Assembly (NCBI RefSeq): GCF_900100705.1
Contig: NZ_FNCH01000016.1
Location: 1 to 64,000 of the forward strand
DNA: 64,000 nucleotides
Source: Pedobacter terrae
Lineage (GTDB): Bacteria; Bacteroidota; Bacteroidia; Sphingobacteriales; Sphingobacteriaceae
Reading direction: 5' to 3'
Part shown: positions 18,022 through 25,799 of the stretch, piece after piece
Position numbering within the stretch: position 1 is the first letter of the stretch
Layout of the letters: each line of letters starts with the position of its first letter
The notes under the pieces: generated by a model
The model's input: only the letters and a program-made list of their open reading frames with translations
Told to the model about the DNA's origin: nothing
Database searches by the model: none
Program-made: the position numbers and the translations under genes

Positions 18022-18954
18022 TTAAAGTGCCAACGCAATCTCTTTCTCCAGGTTGTAATTACAAGGACTTGATACCATACCAAACTGGCCAACAGGATTT
18101 AAGTCTAAAAAATAATATTTGGCGTCTTCGCTGGCATAAATCACATCAAAAGAAGCACAATTTAGTCCATAGGCATCAAGCATTTTTTTTAGCTTTTGTT
18201 CATACGTTTTTTCGAAAGAGTAAGGTGTAACCCTATTTGGTTTATCCCTGTCATAATTCCTGAAATCTATAGTCGTATTGCTATTGTTCTGAGAGAAGAT
18301 GGCCATGGCATAAAATTTACCATTTAGGTAAAAAGCCCTAATCTCATAAGCTTTTGTAATGGCGCGCTGAAAAAAAGTGGGCACAAATTGCTCTGGGAGT
18401 GCATCAATATCTGCAGGGGTAACCATGGATGTATAGGCCATATGCGAGAAATCTTCTTCATCCTGTAACGAAAATGGCGTACTTATGGGCTTGGAAATAA
18501 TATGCGTTTCTTGCTTAAAAAAATTGGCAACTTCGCTTTTGCAACCTGTAACCAGATATTTCGGTGCTAAAACATCATATTGCTGACAAAGGTCCATTAA
18601 ATATAGTTTGTTGATATCGCTGTTTTTGAATTTGTTTACCGAAGGGATTTTATCCAGCCTGTGATAAAAATATGTAACGAGCGCGGTATGTTCAGTGCGC
18701 AGGTAGTCCTTAATTAAATCGTTCTTAAATTTAGCAAAGAGATCCAATCCACCCCTGCGGTACCACATTTTGGTAATCTGGCTGCCTAAAACTGTTATCC
18801 CGTTCACCACGATTGCAAAATCTACAGCGTTAAGCCATAGCAGTTCCACTAAGGTATCTTCATTGATACGGATAAAGGGCTTATTAAGCTTGATAAGCCA
18901 GCTAATTACAGCACTGGTAGAATAATCGTTGTTAATGGAAAATATTAATATCAC
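18022..18954 (-). CDS. gwsG: Grasp-with-spasm system ATP-grasp peptide maturase
   Basis: An ATP-grasp ligase of 310 residues, probably installing ester or amide crosslinks between side chains of the precursor, as graspetide ligases do. Visible ATP-grasp features are KPISTPFSLQ in the ATP-binding lobe, EIRAFYLNGKFYAMAIFSQ, the arginine-rich DFRNYDRDKPNR segment, and the metal-binding end SFDVIYASED...FLDLNPVGQFG. The N-terminal domain begins MILIFSINNDYSTSAVI. It is separated from the three precursor genes by a strong hairpin. The family call is firm; the exact bond made is not determinable from sequence. Confidence 0.88.
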   Translation of the reverse strand: MILIFSINNDYSTSAVISWLIKLNKPFIRINEDTLVELLWLNAVDFAIVVNGITVLGSQITKMWYRRGGLDLFAKFKNDLIKDYLRTEHTALVTYFYHRLDKIPSVNKFKNSDINKLYLMDLCQQYDVLAPKYLVTGCKSEVANFFKQETHIISKPISTPFSLQDEEDFSHMAYTSMVTPADIDALPEQFVPTFFQRAITKAYEIRAFYLNGKFYAMAIFSQNNSNTTIDFRNYDRDKPNRVTPYSFEKTYEQKLKKMLDAYGLNCASFDVIYASEDAKYYFLDLNPVGQFGMVSSPCNYNLEKEIALAL

Positions 18955-19102: not shown

Positions 19103-19300
19103 TTAAGTTTGCCATGCAGAATAGCTAGGAGTGCCAACTGTTTGGCCCTGATCGTCGTAGAAAGTTGTTGTTTTATCTGCACAATGATCGCCGTAGGTAT
19201 ATTTAGTACACATAGCTGAAGTTACCATAACGCGGCCACCGTTAACCCGGCAATTGTTTAGCGCTATTTTTTTTTCTAATAATTTTTCGCAGTTTTTCAT
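19103..19300 (-). CDS. Double-glycine RiPP precursor peptide 1
   Basis: The 65-residue peptide has a leader of 22 residues (MKNCEKLLEKKIALNNCRVN then GG at 21-22) that aligns without gaps to the two neighbouring peptides. The predicted core after the double glycine is rich in Thr, Asp, Tyr and Cys (CTKYTYGDHCADKTTTFYDD). Threonine and acidic residues are the usual partners for ATP-grasp ester bonds. It is nine bases downstream of precursor 2 and 148 bases upstream of the ATP-grasp gene. The C39 exporter of the cluster should cleave after Gly22. Confidence 0.85.
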   Translation of the reverse strand: MKNCEKLLEKKIALNNCRVNGGRVMVTSAMCTKYTYGDHCADKTTTFYDDQGQTVGTPSYSAWQT

Positions 19301-19309
19301 GTTTGTGAA

Positions 19310-19516
19310 TTAATTAAATAGTTTTGGACAATTCATGAAAGTGCATTCGTCAACCCGTTGATTTCGGTCATTACGTACTTCTGAATGTACAAACGTACAG
19401 CCATTTTCTGTATGTGTGGAGCTTGTGTTTTTATAGGTCTCACTAGTACGGCCGCCGCTGATTTGACTATTCTTTAGTACGATTTGTTTCTCGAACAATT
19501 TGTTGCTGTTTTTCAT
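19310..19516 (-). CDS. Double-glycine RiPP precursor peptide 2
   Basis: I take the start at 19516 (MKNSNKLFEKQIVLKNSQIS then GG), giving 68 residues, because it aligns exactly with the leaders of the other two precursors. The open frame runs 32 codons further upstream without family similarity. The core holds many Ser/Thr residues (YKNTSSTHTENGCTF) and a later acidic part (SEVRNDRNQRVDE), again a plausible substrate pattern for an ATP-grasp macrocyclase. A 150-base gap separates it from precursor 3. Confidence 0.83.
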   Translation of the reverse strand: MKNSNKLFEKQIVLKNSQISGGRTSETYKNTSSTHTENGCTFVHSEVRNDRNQRVDECTFMNCPKLFN

Positions 19517-19666
19517 ATTTTTCTGATTAAATTTTATACTTCGTTCAACAACTTTAAAAAATGAAACCTCAAATGTAATTGTGAAAGCTTTGGCATATTT
19601 TATTATCCTCACTTAACTCATCAACATTTAAGCGTGAAAATTTCTAAAGGTTAAGATAACACGGTA

Positions 19667-19870
19667 TTATTTGCCTGTAAAAATAGGGTCGTAACCAATT
19701 GGTGTACCAGATCCAGGTTGGTCAAAGCCAATGTCTGTGCAAGTATCAGGGTTTTCTCTTGTTCCTGTTTCTGCTACAGAAGTTTGATTGCTGAATCCAA
19801 GTTTGCCACCATTGATTTGGCAATCTTTTAACTCAATTTTTTTTTCGAATAAGCTTTTTTTTGTTTTCAT
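19667..19870 (-). CDS. Double-glycine RiPP precursor peptide 3
   Basis: With the start at 19870 the peptide has 67 residues: leader MKTKKSLFEKKIELKDCQIN then GG at 21-22, and a core with TSVAETGTRENPDTC followed by glycine- and proline-rich sequence (FDQPGSGTPIGYDP). The start at 19900 would add ten unrelated residues. It is the most upstream gene of the cluster. The core differs strongly from those of precursors 1 and 2 while the leader is conserved, as expected for a leader-guided modification system. Confidence 0.83.
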   Translation of the reverse strand: MKTKKSLFEKKIELKDCQINGGKLGFSNQTSVAETGTRENPDTCTDIGFDQPGSGTPIGYDPIFTGK

Positions 19871-20361
19871 AATGAAAATTTGACTAGTTAAACTCGCCAC
19901 CTTACCCTGGCGTTTGGGCTTTTACTAATTGGCTTTATAACTATTATTTGTACGTCTACAAAAGAATATATTATAGCAGCCTATTTTTTGTAATTCGGAA
20001 AAGCAAGCACGCGTTATTGCCTAACCATATTTAAACTTCCCTAAAAAAGAATACCGTTACAAGGGAGAATTGATATATGGGAAGATTGAGTCTACATTCG
20101 TTAATGTTTTGTATAAAAGCGCTAAACCTTAAAATAGGTAGGTTTCAATTTTAAGTGGATTTTGAATAACTACATATTTGATTCCGTTATTAAAATCTCA
20201 CTTATAAATTATTTGGGTATTAGCGATATGTTTTTACCTGCTTAAAAAAGCAAGATCATATGCTCAGCTATTCTGCTAAAAAGATGCTATGGGATTAATT
20301 TTAGAAAGGCTTGATTTGCTTTAAATGCAAGTGGTGGTTAATCGGATTTAAGGTAGCAAAC
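19871..20361. other. Upstream region of the precursor cluster, no gene seen
   Basis: No coding sequence is convincing here and I found no fourth GG-leader peptide. On the minus strand I see no TANNTTTG box upstream of precursor 3, unlike several housekeeping genes in the window. A CTTTTGTAGACG stretch (about 19956-19967 on the minus strand) could be a -33 element without a partner. Regulation by an alternative sigma factor or an activator is possible. Confidence 0.5.
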
Positions 20362-22393: not shown

Positions 22394-23230
22394 ATGAGTA
22401 CTTTAAAAATCATCCCTATTTTTCTTTTGTTAACCATTGCAGCTTTCGCTCAGAAAAAGGCTGTTCCCATTAATCTCATCACCTATAACATCCGCTTGAA
22501 TGTAGCATCAGATGGAGTTAATGCCTGGCCAAACCGAAAAGACAATGTAAAAGCTTTGGTTAAATTTCACGATGCCGATATTCTTTGCGTGCAGGAAGCC
22601 TTGCCTGAACAATTTGACGCCTTGCTCGAAAATTCTAATTTTGATGTAGTAGGCGTTGGACGTGATGATGGTAAAAGAAAAGGAGAATTTTCAGCTGTTT
22701 ATTACGATAAAGACCGCTTTACAAAAAAAGATGGCGGTACGTTCTGGTTATCAGAAACGCCTGATGTACCTTCAAAAGGATGGGATGCGGCACTTAACCG
22801 CGTATGTAGCTGGGTAAAGCTTTACGATAAATTAAATAAAAAAGAATTTATTGTTTTTAATACTCATTACGATCATGTTGGGGTAAAAGCGCGAATTGAA
22901 TCAGCTAAATTGTTAAAACAAAAGATACAACAGATTGCGCCTGATTTACCGGTTGTTTTTACCGGTGATTTAAATGTTACGCCAGAAACAGAGGCCATTG
23001 CGACCATCAAATCTTTTTTGATTGATGCGAAAGATATTTCTATAGAACCTCCATACGGGCCAACTGGTACTTTTAATGGTTTTCACTTCGACAGCGACCT
23101 GAAAGATCGGATTGATTATATTTTTGTAAACAAAGGTTTTAAAGTGCAAAAGTTTGCCATATTAACTGATAGTAAAGATAAAAGGTATTATTCTGATCAT
23201 TTACCTGTTTTTTGCCGGTTATTCTTTTAG
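22394..23230 (+). CDS. Secreted endonuclease/exonuclease/phosphatase-family hydrolase
   Basis: A 278-residue protein with a signal peptide (IIPIFLLLTIAAFAQ, cut after about residue 19) and a complete EEP fold. The metal and catalytic motifs are visible: NIRLN, the glutamate in VQEALPEQ, FNTHYDHVG, TGDLNVTPET, DRIDYIFVNKG and the final SDHLPV. EEP members cleave phosphodiesters of DNA, inositol phosphates or sphingomyelin; the substrate here cannot be told. It is exported to the periplasm or outside. The Lgt-like gene follows after three bases, so it probably belongs to the same operon. Confidence 0.85.
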   Translation: MSTLKIIPIFLLLTIAAFAQKKAVPINLITYNIRLNVASDGVNAWPNRKDNVKALVKFHDADILCVQEALPEQFDALLENSNFDVVGVGRDDGKRKGEFSAVYYDKDRFTKKDGGTFWLSETPDVPSKGWDAALNRVCSWVKLYDKLNKKEFIVFNTHYDHVGVKARIESAKLLKQKIQQIAPDLPVVFTGDLNVTPETEAIATIKSFLIDAKDISIEPPYGPTGTFNGFHFDSDLKDRIDYIFVNKGFKVQKFAILTDSKDKRYYSDHLPVFCRLFF

Positions 23231-23233
23231 TCA

Positions 23234-23998
23234 ATGCTGTTAAAATCCGAATCGCCATTTCCTTTTCAATTCGAACTTTTTGGTGACCAATACCATTATC
23301 ATTATATTTTCGAAACCCTGGCATTTTTAACCGGTGTAAGGTTATACTACTATTATAAGAGGGGAATTGAAGATCCGATATCCGACGAAAACAGGCTGTG
23401 GATTATGTTGGGTGCGATGTTGGGCGCGCTGATTGGCTCTCGAGTGGTAGCAGTACTGGAAACTCCGGAAGTAATCAATCACCTGACGTTTTCAATTTTA
23501 TATCAAAGTAAAACCATTGTTGGCGGTTTGCTTGGTGGCTTGTTCGGGGTAGAATTGATTAAAAAGATAATAGGCGTAAATATTGCCTCCGGAGATGTTT
23601 ATGTCGTGCCGATTTTGGTTGCGTTAATTATAGGCCGCGTCGGCTGCTTCTCCATGGGAATCGATGAACCTACTTATGGCATCCCAACCCGATTTTTTAT
23701 GGGAATGGATCTAGGTGACGGTATACTCAGGCACCCTATTATGCTCTATGAAATGATTTACCTGGTACTTTTAATCTTTCTTTTTAACAGCCTGAAACAT
23801 CAGGAAATGATTAATGGCGACCGCTTTAAATTATTTATGGTGCTTTATTTCTTATTTAGGTTTTTGATAGAGTTTATAAAGCCTTATCATTCATTATTTT
23901 TAAATTTAAGCAGCATTCATTGGTCTGCATTGTTTATTTTTATTTATTATTATAAATTCATTATCAGAATTTCTACACAGATTTTACCTGGAAAGTAA
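23234..23998 (+). CDS. Divergent Lgt-like (prolipoprotein diacylglyceryl transferase family) membrane protein
   Basis: The 254-residue protein has about seven membrane segments and clear Lgt traces: GGLLGGLFG at 97-105, GRVGCFSMG at 134-142 and RHPIMLYE at 166-173. It deviates where Lgt is strict. The residue aligned with the essential histidine of the HGG motif is Val96, and the asparagine of GRxGNF is Cys138. The arginine of that motif (Arg135) is kept. It may therefore handle a phospholipid in another reaction rather than modify lipoproteins. It is five bases upstream of the radical SAM gene and three bases after the EEP gene. Confidence 0.75.
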   Translation: MLLKSESPFPFQFELFGDQYHYHYIFETLAFLTGVRLYYYYKRGIEDPISDENRLWIMLGAMLGALIGSRVVAVLETPEVINHLTFSILYQSKTIVGGLLGGLFGVELIKKIIGVNIASGDVYVVPILVALIIGRVGCFSMGIDEPTYGIPTRFFMGMDLGDGILRHPIMLYEMIYLVLLIFLFNSLKHQEMINGDRFKLFMVLYFLFRFLIEFIKPYHSLFLNLSSIHWSALFIFIYYYKFIIRISTQILPGK

Positions 23999-24003
23999 AC
24001 ATT

Positions 24004-25398
24004 ATGGCCAATACCAGAGATTATATATACTACGATTACACCAAAAGTCTTTGTCCCGAATGTTTGCAGCTTTGCGATGCGAAGATTGTTTTTCAGGATG
24101 CGAAGGTATTTATGCTGAAAAATTGCAGAACGCATGGCGATAGCAAAGTCATGATTGCAGACGATGTAGAATACTATAAACAGATCCGTAATTACAATAA
24201 ACAATCTGAAATGCCACTTAAGTTTAATACCAAAGTGCATTACGGTTGTCCTTACGATTGTGGCTTGTGTACCGATCACGAACAACATTCATGTTTAACG
24301 GTAATAGAGGTTACCGATCGTTGCAACCTGGCCTGTCCAACCTGTTATGCTATGTCATCGCCTAATTATGGCAGACATAGAACGTTGACCGAAATAGAGC
24401 GCATGATGGATGTTGTAGTGGCCAACGAAGGTGAGCCTGATGTGGTTCAGCTCTCTGGCGGGGAACCGACGGTACATCCTGAATTTTTTAAAATTCTAGA
24501 CCTTGCCAAAACCAAACCCATTAAACATTTAATGGTAAACACCAATGGCATCAGGATTGCAAAGGATATTAATTTTGTAGAGAAACTGGCGAGTTATATG
24601 CCAGATTTTGAAATTTATCTCCAGTTTGATAGTTTCAGTCCCGAAGTATTAACAAAGTTAAGGGGTGAAGACCTTACCGAAGTAAGAAAAAAAGCTATCG
24701 ATCATTTAAATCAGTTTAACGTATCTACTACTTTGGTGGTCACCTTGCAAAACGGGTTGAATGATCATGAAATTGGCGATATTTTAGATTATGCGCTTAA
24801 GCAGAAATGTGTTCGTGGCGTTACTTTTCAGCCTACCCAGGTTGCTGGAAGAAATGATGATTATAACGATCAGCAGGGAAGAATTACCTTAACCGAGGTG
24901 CGCAGAAAGATTTATGAACAATACCCAACTTTTACACCACAAGATTTAATTCCTGTGCCATGTAATCCCGATGCATTGTGTATGGCCTATGCTTTAAAAA
25001 TTGGTGATGAGGTCATCCCGATGACACACTTGATCAATCCCGAAGATTTGCTCAATAACTCAAAAAATACCATTGTTTTCGAACACGATGAAAAATTGAA
25101 AGAGCACATGCTCAACTTGTTTAGCACAGGTGTTTCGGTAGATTGTGCAGAAGATACTTTTGGCGAATTGATGTGCTGCCTGCCAAGAGTAAAATCTGAT
25201 AGTTTGAGTTACGATAATTTATTTCGGATCATTATCATGAATTTTATGGATCCGCTGGATTTTGATGTGCGGGCCGTTAAAAAATCATGTGTACACATTG
25301 TAAGCGATAAATATAAAATGGTTCCTTTCGAAACCATGAATATTTTTTACCGCGACAATAAAATAGATCTGATCAGGGAAAAATTAAATATGAACTAA
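24004..25398 (+). CDS. Multi-cluster radical SAM protein, MJ0619/tetraether synthase-like
   Basis: The 464-residue enzyme has the core radical-SAM motif Cys107-Cys111-Cys114 (CNLACPTC). Two further cysteine groups precede it: Cys17, Cys20, Cys24 and Cys41 (a possible rubredoxin-like site) and Cys82, Cys86, Cys89 and Cys97 (CPYDCGLC...C). More cysteines lie near the C-terminus (VPCNPDALC, LMCCLPRV). This arrangement resembles the archaeal family that includes MJ0619 and the tetraether lipid synthase Tes, which couple lipid tails or act on pterins. A role in alkylating or joining lipid chains is inferred from that likeness and from the Lgt-like neighbour. Confidence 0.72.
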   Translation: MANTRDYIYYDYTKSLCPECLQLCDAKIVFQDAKVFMLKNCRTHGDSKVMIADDVEYYKQIRNYNKQSEMPLKFNTKVHYGCPYDCGLCTDHEQHSCLTVIEVTDRCNLACPTCYAMSSPNYGRHRTLTEIERMMDVVVANEGEPDVVQLSGGEPTVHPEFFKILDLAKTKPIKHLMVNTNGIRIAKDINFVEKLASYMPDFEIYLQFDSFSPEVLTKLRGEDLTEVRKKAIDHLNQFNVSTTLVVTLQNGLNDHEIGDILDYALKQKCVRGVTFQPTQVAGRNDDYNDQQGRITLTEVRRKIYEQYPTFTPQDLIPVPCNPDALCMAYALKIGDEVIPMTHLINPEDLLNNSKNTIVFEHDEKLKEHMLNLFSTGVSVDCAEDTFGELMCCLPRVKSDSLSYDNLFRIIIMNFMDPLDFDVRAVKKSCVHIVSDKYKMVPFETMNIFYRDNKIDLIREKLNMN

Positions 25399-25399
25399 T

Positions 25400-25588
25400 A
25401 TGGTATTCGGCTTAGTTGTGATTTATGTTCTTACTGCAATTGTACTTTTTGTGGTCGGAATTATTCAGATTATTATTAAATCATCCAGGAACGAACCGGT
25501 GAAGCCAGGACTAAAATTGCTTATTATATCGGTAATTATGGCGGTAATCGGTTTTGGTGCTTGTGCCGTATTGCTTTTCAATAGTTAA
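25400..25588 (+). CDS. Small two-helix membrane protein, copy 1
   Basis: A 62-residue protein with two membrane segments (about 3-24 and 42-60) joined by a basic loop KSSRNEPVKPGLK. It starts one base after the stop of the radical SAM gene and therefore belongs to the same operon. It is a clear paralogue of the next gene: IGFGACAVLLF here corresponds to IGAGACAVILS there. I do not recognise a named family. It may be a membrane partner of the enzymes upstream. Confidence 0.78.
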   Translation: MVFGLVVIYVLTAIVLFVVGIIQIIIKSSRNEPVKPGLKLLIISVIMAVIGFGACAVLLFNS

Positions 25589-25604
25589 TTTAAAAATAAA
25601 AAGT

Positions 25605-25799
25605 ATGGGGATTTTTATCGTATATTGGATAATTGTTGTCTTATTGTTTTTCATTGGCATCATTCAGATAATCGTAAAGGCGACTAAAGATCAGCCTGTT
25701 AAACCCGGGCTTAAGTTGGTTATTGCTTCAGTTATTATGCTGGTAATTGGGGCAGGAGCATGTGCGGTAATTCTTTCCAATTTAAATATTGGCCATTAG
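25605..25799 (+). CDS. Small two-helix membrane protein, copy 2
   Basis: I choose the start at 25605, giving 64 residues from MGIFIVYWIIVVLLFF, because it aligns with the first copy; the open frame reaches back to 25554 inside that gene. Two membrane segments flank a basic loop (KATKDQPVKPGLK) matching copy 1, and the second helix carries VIGAGACAVIL. The gap to copy 1 is 16 bases. The tandem duplication suggests a hetero-oligomer or recent duplication under selection. Confidence 0.76.
   Translation: MGIFIVYWIIVVLLFFIGIIQIIVKATKDQPVKPGLKLVIASVIMLVIGAGACAVILSNLNIGH

Follow-up and report, generated by a model that had tools for sequence, protein, structure and literature searches.

A conserved bacterial gene set combining an Lgt-family membrane protein, a Tes-like radical SAM protein and small membrane proteins with a terminal cysteine motif

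Introduction

The first 64,000 nucleotides of contig NZ_FNCH01000016.1 of Pedobacter terrae (hereafter the window) carry, at positions 22394-25799, a run of five genes on the forward strand, and this locus raises the question of which of the five genes belong together and what their products might do. A first-pass annotation of the DNA had taken the run for a possible lipid-modifying operon consisting of an EEP-family protein, an Lgt-like protein, a Tes-like radical SAM protein and two small membrane proteins, in which the Lgt-like protein could hold a lipid for the radical SAM protein. The arrangement, with gaps of 3, 5, 1 and 16 bases, was confirmed from the coordinates of the open reading frames (ORFs), and the three family assignments were confirmed by Pfam matches above the cut-offs, Exo_endo_phos for the EEP protein (76.2 bits, cut-off 24.5), LGT (PF01790) for the Lgt-like protein, herewith designated LGTL (71.8 bits, cut-off 24.9), and both Radical_SAM (95.3 bits, cut-off 29.5) and the HMPTM zinc ribbon (65.2 bits, cut-off 27) for the radical SAM protein, herewith designated rSAM. 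The host is a soil-type bacterium with a genome of 5.76 Mb in 63 contigs, its nearest named relatives being Pedobacter. Bacterial homologues of the archaeal lipid enzyme Tes are described as numerous and unexplained in passages of two reports (PMC8941075, PMC9433317).

Results

Association of LGTL, rSAM and small membrane proteins

The conserved unit consists of LGTL, the Tes/TrsS-like rSAM and one to four small membrane proteins. Our searches covered Bacteroidota genomes and a plasmid collection. Among 59 genomes of relatives, rSAM was present in 20, of which 19 belong to the 36 same-genus genomes (the window's own included) and one to another family, and in all 20 the Lgt-like gene lies upstream of rSAM on the same strand. 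For an even draw of 395 Bacteroidota genomes, with thresholds of E <= 1e-60 for rSAM and E <= 1e-20 for the LGTL profile, rSAM was detected in 31 and LGTL-profile matches in 34, all of the 31 being included in the 34. The three extra genomes were G151, with a diverged rSAM (E 8.9e-67), G074, treated below, and G223, in which the match (E 8.6e-23) was rejected as an LGTL because it is an ordinary, canonical Lgt (GRIGCQLAGDGDYG). The final tally was 32 genomes with both enzymes, one with LGTL only and none with rSAM only, such co-occurrence counts being inflated by shared ancestry. The gene association assumed by the first-pass annotation is thus conserved.

In 30 of these 32 genomes no more than 1.2 kb separates the two genes, and in G091 and G327 they are on separate contigs. 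A contig scan covered the best 80 of 290 relatives, with record titles of Bacteroidota save one metagenome-assembled genome labelled Limnohabitans. From a set of 135 loci, 116 non-redundant ones were kept after removal of L002-L005, L025 and L026 (other rSAM or repeat) and of 13 loci with identical rSAM DNA. By tblastn, LGTL was located on the same strand within 1.2 kb of rSAM in 108 of these 116. As to the others, LGTL lies about 1.1 kb downstream in L054 and L055 and on another contig in L049 and L052, while L113, L121 and L122 start too close to a contig end to show it; L119 is treated in the Discussion. The pairwise distances of LGTL and of rSAM were correlated (r = 0.928 for 51 loci, with none of 1000 permutations as high), as expected for genes travelling together. 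The pairing of the Lgt-like protein with rSAM is not a matter of chance.

Small membrane proteins with a terminal cysteine motif

The small ORFs of the cassettes vary in length and in their N-terminal part, and their ends are alike, carrying a lipobox-like motif, roughly I-G-F-G-(T/A/S)-C, followed by 1-13 residues with MH, NS and GH as frequent endings. This motif was found in 157 of 171 unique cassette small ORFs and in none of 292 controls, which were small ORFs of hydrophobic character at a distance of over 2.5 kb; the corresponding numbers were 137/171 and 0/292 for a stricter form of the motif, and 147/171 and 1/292 for a rule free of motif letters, all of these rules having been fitted after the sequences had been inspected. 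The letter-free rule misses the motif proteins of L169, L171 and L180, which were counted by eye. Among 91 representatives, Cys is present in all (invariant through selection on the motif), Gly in 78 at position -4 and in 68 at position -2, and Phe in 49 at position -3. At least one motif protein was found in 110 of the 116 loci (one in 52, two in 53, three in 4 and four in 1). For the six loci scored as zero, L024 does carry a motif protein, missed by the chaining rule since its rSAM is split, L054 and L055 carry it beyond LGTL, L050 runs into a contig edge, and in L049 and L123 no motif protein was seen near the cassette genes.

Neither the two small proteins of the window nor eight diverged small proteins gave a Pfam match above the cut-off. 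The dN/dS ratio was 0.08-0.27 in the 9 of 18 comparisons with estimable dS, dS being saturated in the other 9. The small ORFs behave as genes, and the possibility that they represent noise was rejected on the basis of both the recurrence of the motif in cassette as against control ORFs and dN/dS. Within this genome the two are the sole detected relatives of each other (E <= 10), and although the motif pattern occurs 41 times across the genome, just two of these matches combine the motif with a hydrophobic helix, a short tail and an ORF of at least 40 aa, both being the cassette genes. BLAST clustering lumped 160 of 161 small proteins together, which we put down to common hydrophobic composition; we draw no conclusion on independent origins from it.

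In 88 of the 91 representatives a stretch of net positive charge precedes the last helix, which under the positive-inside rule for membrane helices places the Cys outside. The classical lipobox, with the consensus (L/V/I)(A/S/T/V/I)(G/A/S)C, follows an N-terminal signal peptide, and the small proteins differ from classical lipoproteins in that only 1-13 residues separate their Cys from the C-terminus. The last helix is like the signal peptide of a lipoprotein in that, for 89 of 157, the closest charge on the upstream side is 16 residues away from the Cys, and the tails are short and varied. These features would fit a scheme in which signal peptidase II cleaves the lipidated proteins ahead of the Cys and so frees lipopeptides of 2-14 residues as signals or antagonists. 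We regard this scheme as most improbable, since no dedicated peptidase or exporter gene was seen in the cassettes read, and T, I, V or M occurs at position -1 of the Cys, which is unusual for signal peptidase II.

Distribution beyond close relatives

The set extends to much diverged members. Two diverged rSAMs, from G176 and G425, are 37-38% identical to rSAM, and that of G211 groups in the same part of the tree. LGTL lies about 1.1 kb off in G176, G211 and G425, immediately followed by a small membrane protein with LLFGAC, LIFGSC or LLFGAC, and in G151 LGTL is followed directly by a small protein (SGGMC) and this by rSAM. An isoprenylcysteine carboxyl methyltransferase-like protein (81.3 bits, cut-off 160) is encoded between rSAM and the Lgt-like gene of G211 (L170:3785-4378), and it could methylate a cassette product.

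The plasmid collection contained 10 records with rSAM, of which 8 were read, H7 and H10 being left out. A Persicobacter plasmid record carries the full set. Two mycobacterial plasmids carry an LGT-family gene, two small proteins with tails of the -C-TGLNP type and rSAM, and in Nonomuraea a protein of 368 aa with an ending of the same type is followed by an LGTL 72% identical to the mycobacterial one and by rSAM. The set is thus not confined to Bacteroidota: besides this phylum, three actinomycete records show the linkage of LGTL, rSAM and terminal-Cys small proteins, a reach that the first-pass annotation had missed. The four remaining plasmid homologues of rSAM, three haloarchaeal and one of Mycolicibacterium vanbaalenii (L228, L229, L232, L227), are followed by a methyltransferase gene, and in these stretches no LGT gene was annotated and no terminal-Cys small protein was found by the letter-free rule. 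All four are placed on the same side of a branch supported at 90/84 in an unrooted rSAM tree of 21 rows, in which long branches make the placement unsure. In passages of PMC8941075 the role of halobacterial Tes homologues is called unclear; the methyltransferase neighbour of the haloarchaeal Tes-like genes is a lead to their role.

Gene layout, the EEP neighbour and locus history

The coordinates of the genes are collected in Table 1. Small protein 2 starts with the ATG at 25605, the listed ORF opening upstream at TTG 25554. The EEP gene lies within 1 kb of rSAM in 41 of the 48 loci with rSAM identity of at least 88%, and in none of the remaining 68 loci. It also occurs without the cassette, following radC in 3 of 12 cassette-less Pedobacter genomes, which were taken from 17 same-genus genomes without an rSAM match. 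Being restricted to Pedobacter-group loci, EEP was rejected as a functional member of the cassette on the basis of this distribution, contrary to the first-pass annotation.

Table 1. Genes and motif codons at the Pedobacter locus, in window coordinates.
Feature	Position	Strand	Evidence
EEP-family protein with N-terminal hydrophobic stretch; Pedobacter-group neighbour, outside the core	22394..23230	+	Pfam, distribution
LGTL, integral membrane protein of the Lgt family, 254 aa; core part 1	23234..23998	+	PF01790, AF2 model
rSAM, Tes/TrsS-like radical SAM protein, 464 aa; core part 2	24004..25398	+	Pfam, NCBIfam, fold
Small membrane protein 1, 62 aa, end VIGFGAC-AVLLFNS; core part 3, candidate substrate	25400..25588	+	
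VIGFGAC codons in small protein 1	25544..25564 (Cys55 at 25562-25564)	+	
Small membrane protein 2, 64 aa, end VIGAGAC-AVILSNLNIGH; 58% identical paralogue of protein 1	25605..25799	+	
VIGAGAC codons in small protein 2	25743..25763 (Cys53 at 25761-25763)	+	

In 7 of the 12 cassette-less genomes radC adjoins pheT, and pheT is in view in 2 of the 3 with radC followed by EEP; one genome has other neighbours. In G004, a shortened small protein of 44 aa (L215:2213-2347) with the end IGVGACAAMLSGLGGIH lies between radC and pheT, both enzymes being absent, and this remnant resembles a deletion scar. It is an accessory set, lost in G004 if nowhere else, and its patchy presence points to an accessory function. 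The rSAM gene is disrupted by an internal TAA in G017 (L022, which was excluded from the alignments for this one internal stop) and is split in G002 (L024/L025), indicating either that the system is decaying in some strains or that the assemblies contain errors.

Elsewhere in the window, at 18022-18954 (-) and 19103-19900 (-), lies an ATP-grasp peptide maturase of the grasp-with-spasm type (TIGR04192, 282 bits against a cut-off of 230) beside three short ORFs with similar starts, K-K-I/E-L-x-x-C/S-x-I/V-x-GG. Judged from their sequences these look like precursors for the maturase, and no NCBIfam model matched them.

Discussion

Proposed modification of the small membrane proteins

We propose that the set is a dedicated cassette for the modification of membrane proteins, a reading to which we give an even chance. 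The small proteins are very probably substrates or obligate partners of both enzymes; they are likely substrates because a single residue is held constant as they diversify and increase in number, and because they travel with an enzyme family that performs lipid transfer to such a Cys at the same membrane face. In the proposed mechanism, in which the small proteins would serve both enzymes as substrates, LGTL would transfer diacylglyceryl from phosphatidylglycerol to the terminal Cys at the outer membrane face, as Lgt does at the lipobox, and rSAM would then modify either the lipid tails, as Tes does, or the peptide by radical chemistry. That the last helix runs from the cytoplasm to the outside, with the Cys at the outer face and diacylglyceryl moved onto it by the Lgt-like enzyme, we consider rather probable. 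For rSAM, further radical modification of the acyl tails is suggested tentatively by analogy, from its likeness to Tes, and modification of the peptide is a somewhat doubtful proposal drawn from the motif. The proposed cassette is supported by the recurrence of motif proteins beside much diverged enzymes and in actinomycetes, and by the failure to find them near the four methyltransferase-type homologues. A more far-reaching form, a lipid-based system for tethering proteins in which the Tes-like enzyme would join the acyl ends of lipidated small proteins mutually or with a lipid from the other leaflet, so that covalently paired or membrane-spanning lipoproteins arise, appears very unlikely.

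Several observations weigh against the proposed modification. Two conserved membrane proteins encoded side by side could be partners rather than substrates. L123 has no visible motif protein; L119, with rSAM and a motif protein, has no LGTL in the 6 kb upstream; in G091, with the two enzymes on different contigs, a motif protein lies near neither; an LGTL-clade gene is present in G074 (L176:5653-6498 (-), E 8.6e-77) with no rSAM of the family at E <= 1e-5; and the shortened motif protein of G004 persists alone without the enzymes. The residue at -1 is G, A or S in 33/91 and T in 33/91, so that the motif is not a classical lipobox. Finally, LGTL lacks two residues of Lgt, His103 of the HGGL motif, replaced by V, A, M or L (T in G211), and Glu151; the passages seen of Mao et al. 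2016 (PMC4728403) place R143 and R239 of E. coli Lgt in the catalytic pocket and describe H103 and E151 mutants as inactive. This last objection is tempered by the housekeeping Lgt of the present genome, which also has another residue, Tyr, at 103, and Asp near 151.

No description of the gene set was found in the open-licence literature, the only papers covered, which is no proof of absence; the set is apparently undescribed and suggests a new way of modifying membrane proteins. Through it, one large group of bacterial Tes homologues gains a partner enzyme as well as a candidate substrate in which a single target residue is predicted, so that the question on these homologues becomes a mass-spectrometry experiment. 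If the proposal is true, Lgt-type chemistry is not limited to N-terminal signal peptides and also takes in the final helix of small membrane proteins, an extension that to our knowledge has not been described. As to the first-pass idea of a lipid-modifying operon, the Lgt homologue, the Tes-like rSAM and their linkage stood, the membership of EEP did not, and the terminal-Cys motif had escaped notice.

Comparison with known systems

The AlphaFold2 (AF2) model of LGTL (pLDDT 92.8) is most like E. coli Lgt (phosphatidylglycerol-prolipoprotein diacylglyceryl transferase, PDB 5azb), with Z 13.7 over 237 residues against Z 6.3 for the next row, and the Lgt-like assignment of gene 2 holds by fold, with the catalytic arginines kept. 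R135 and R209 of LGTL align with R143 and R239 of Lgt, and R143, R239, H196-P..L-Y-E202, Y235 and G154 are retained in 42 of 42 LGTL rows (41 distinct) and E243 in 39 of 42; for these alignments 83 Lgt-like ORFs were extracted and 41 aligned, the Lgt-like gene of L020 being excluded from alignments A2 and A3. The equivalents of R143 and R239 are also present in four diverged and two mycobacterial LGTL homologues. Activity of LGTL is, from its sequence, likely and not assured, since both arginines are kept but the residues with inactive mutants, H103 and E151, are lost. The lack of H103 means that LGTL could bind lipid without transfer, and Tes and Gms act on free lipids according to passages of PMC11186832 and PMC9433317. 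A modified membrane lipid might then be the product of rSAM, bound or presented by LGTL and the small proteins, with the Cys serving disulfides, metal binding or packing. This alternative is distinctly unlikely, since R143/R239 equivalents in every LGTL row point to catalysis, and it does not readily account for small proteins that vary and number from one to four yet keep a constant Cys. LGTL reaches 39 bits with the Lgt equivalog of NCBIfam (cut-off 334) and was rejected as the housekeeping Lgt, a separate canonical Lgt being encoded on another contig. At 398 aa the latter (L005:1423-2619) is unusually long and, compared with E. coli Lgt, contains some 100 inserted residues.

The rSAM model (pLDDT 77.6, weak at 78-81, 116-121 and 373-398) has archaeal MjTes (tetraether lipid synthase MJ0619; PDB 7tol, 7tom) as its closest structure, with Z 41.1 to 7tom over 408 residues, so that the Tes-like designation is borne out. 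The next family, MoaA, gives Z 19.4, and SuiB and SkfB, both of them peptide maturases, come further down among the matches (Z 17-19). The latter would suit an rSAM that is chiefly peptide-modifying, introducing a thioether or C-C link in the Gly-rich Cys motif, while the Lgt-like protein presents the small proteins or works on what is formed from them. A radical SAM gene accompanied by tandem small proteins that vary but have one constant C-terminal motif also recalls precursor-and-maturase sets. Such a role is nevertheless unlikely, Tes being by far the nearest structure and an LGT-family partner being unexpected beside a peptide maturase.

The likeness of rSAM to Tes extends to its metal sites, the ligands of which are given for Tes in passages of PMC9433317. 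The spacing of the rubredoxin-type site of Tes recurs in C17-X2-C20-X20-C41-X2-H44, and the spacing of its N-terminal cluster in C82/C86/C89. The radical SAM motif is C107-X3-C111-X2-C114, and the labile Met439 of Tes has M412 as its counterpart in the alignment. All nine Cys residues are invariant across 35 rows and H44 and M412 almost invariant, and the C82/C86/C89 trio is missing in the rSAMs of the actinomycetes and G151. Against the Tes/GDGT-MAS equivalog of NCBIfam, rSAM scores 273.7 bits (cut-off 450), and its best NCBIfam match is TrsS (NF045646), with 316.8 bits at near full length (cut-off 490). Filing rSAM as Tes or TrsS was rejected on these curated cut-offs, and neither of these nearest families gives an unrelated established substrate of the kind that would have spoken against the first-pass proposal. 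TrsS, a radical SAM (seleno)protein, is mentioned in one table of PMC13188914, and no described function was found for it. Mss, a bacterial membrane-spanning lipid synthase, shares the catalytic architecture of Tes according to passages of PMC13274423, and may be related to rSAM. The present set differs from Tes in its bacterial host and in its LGT-family and small-protein partners, and from Lgt in that the candidate acceptors carry the Cys near the C-terminal end instead of after an N-terminal signal peptide.

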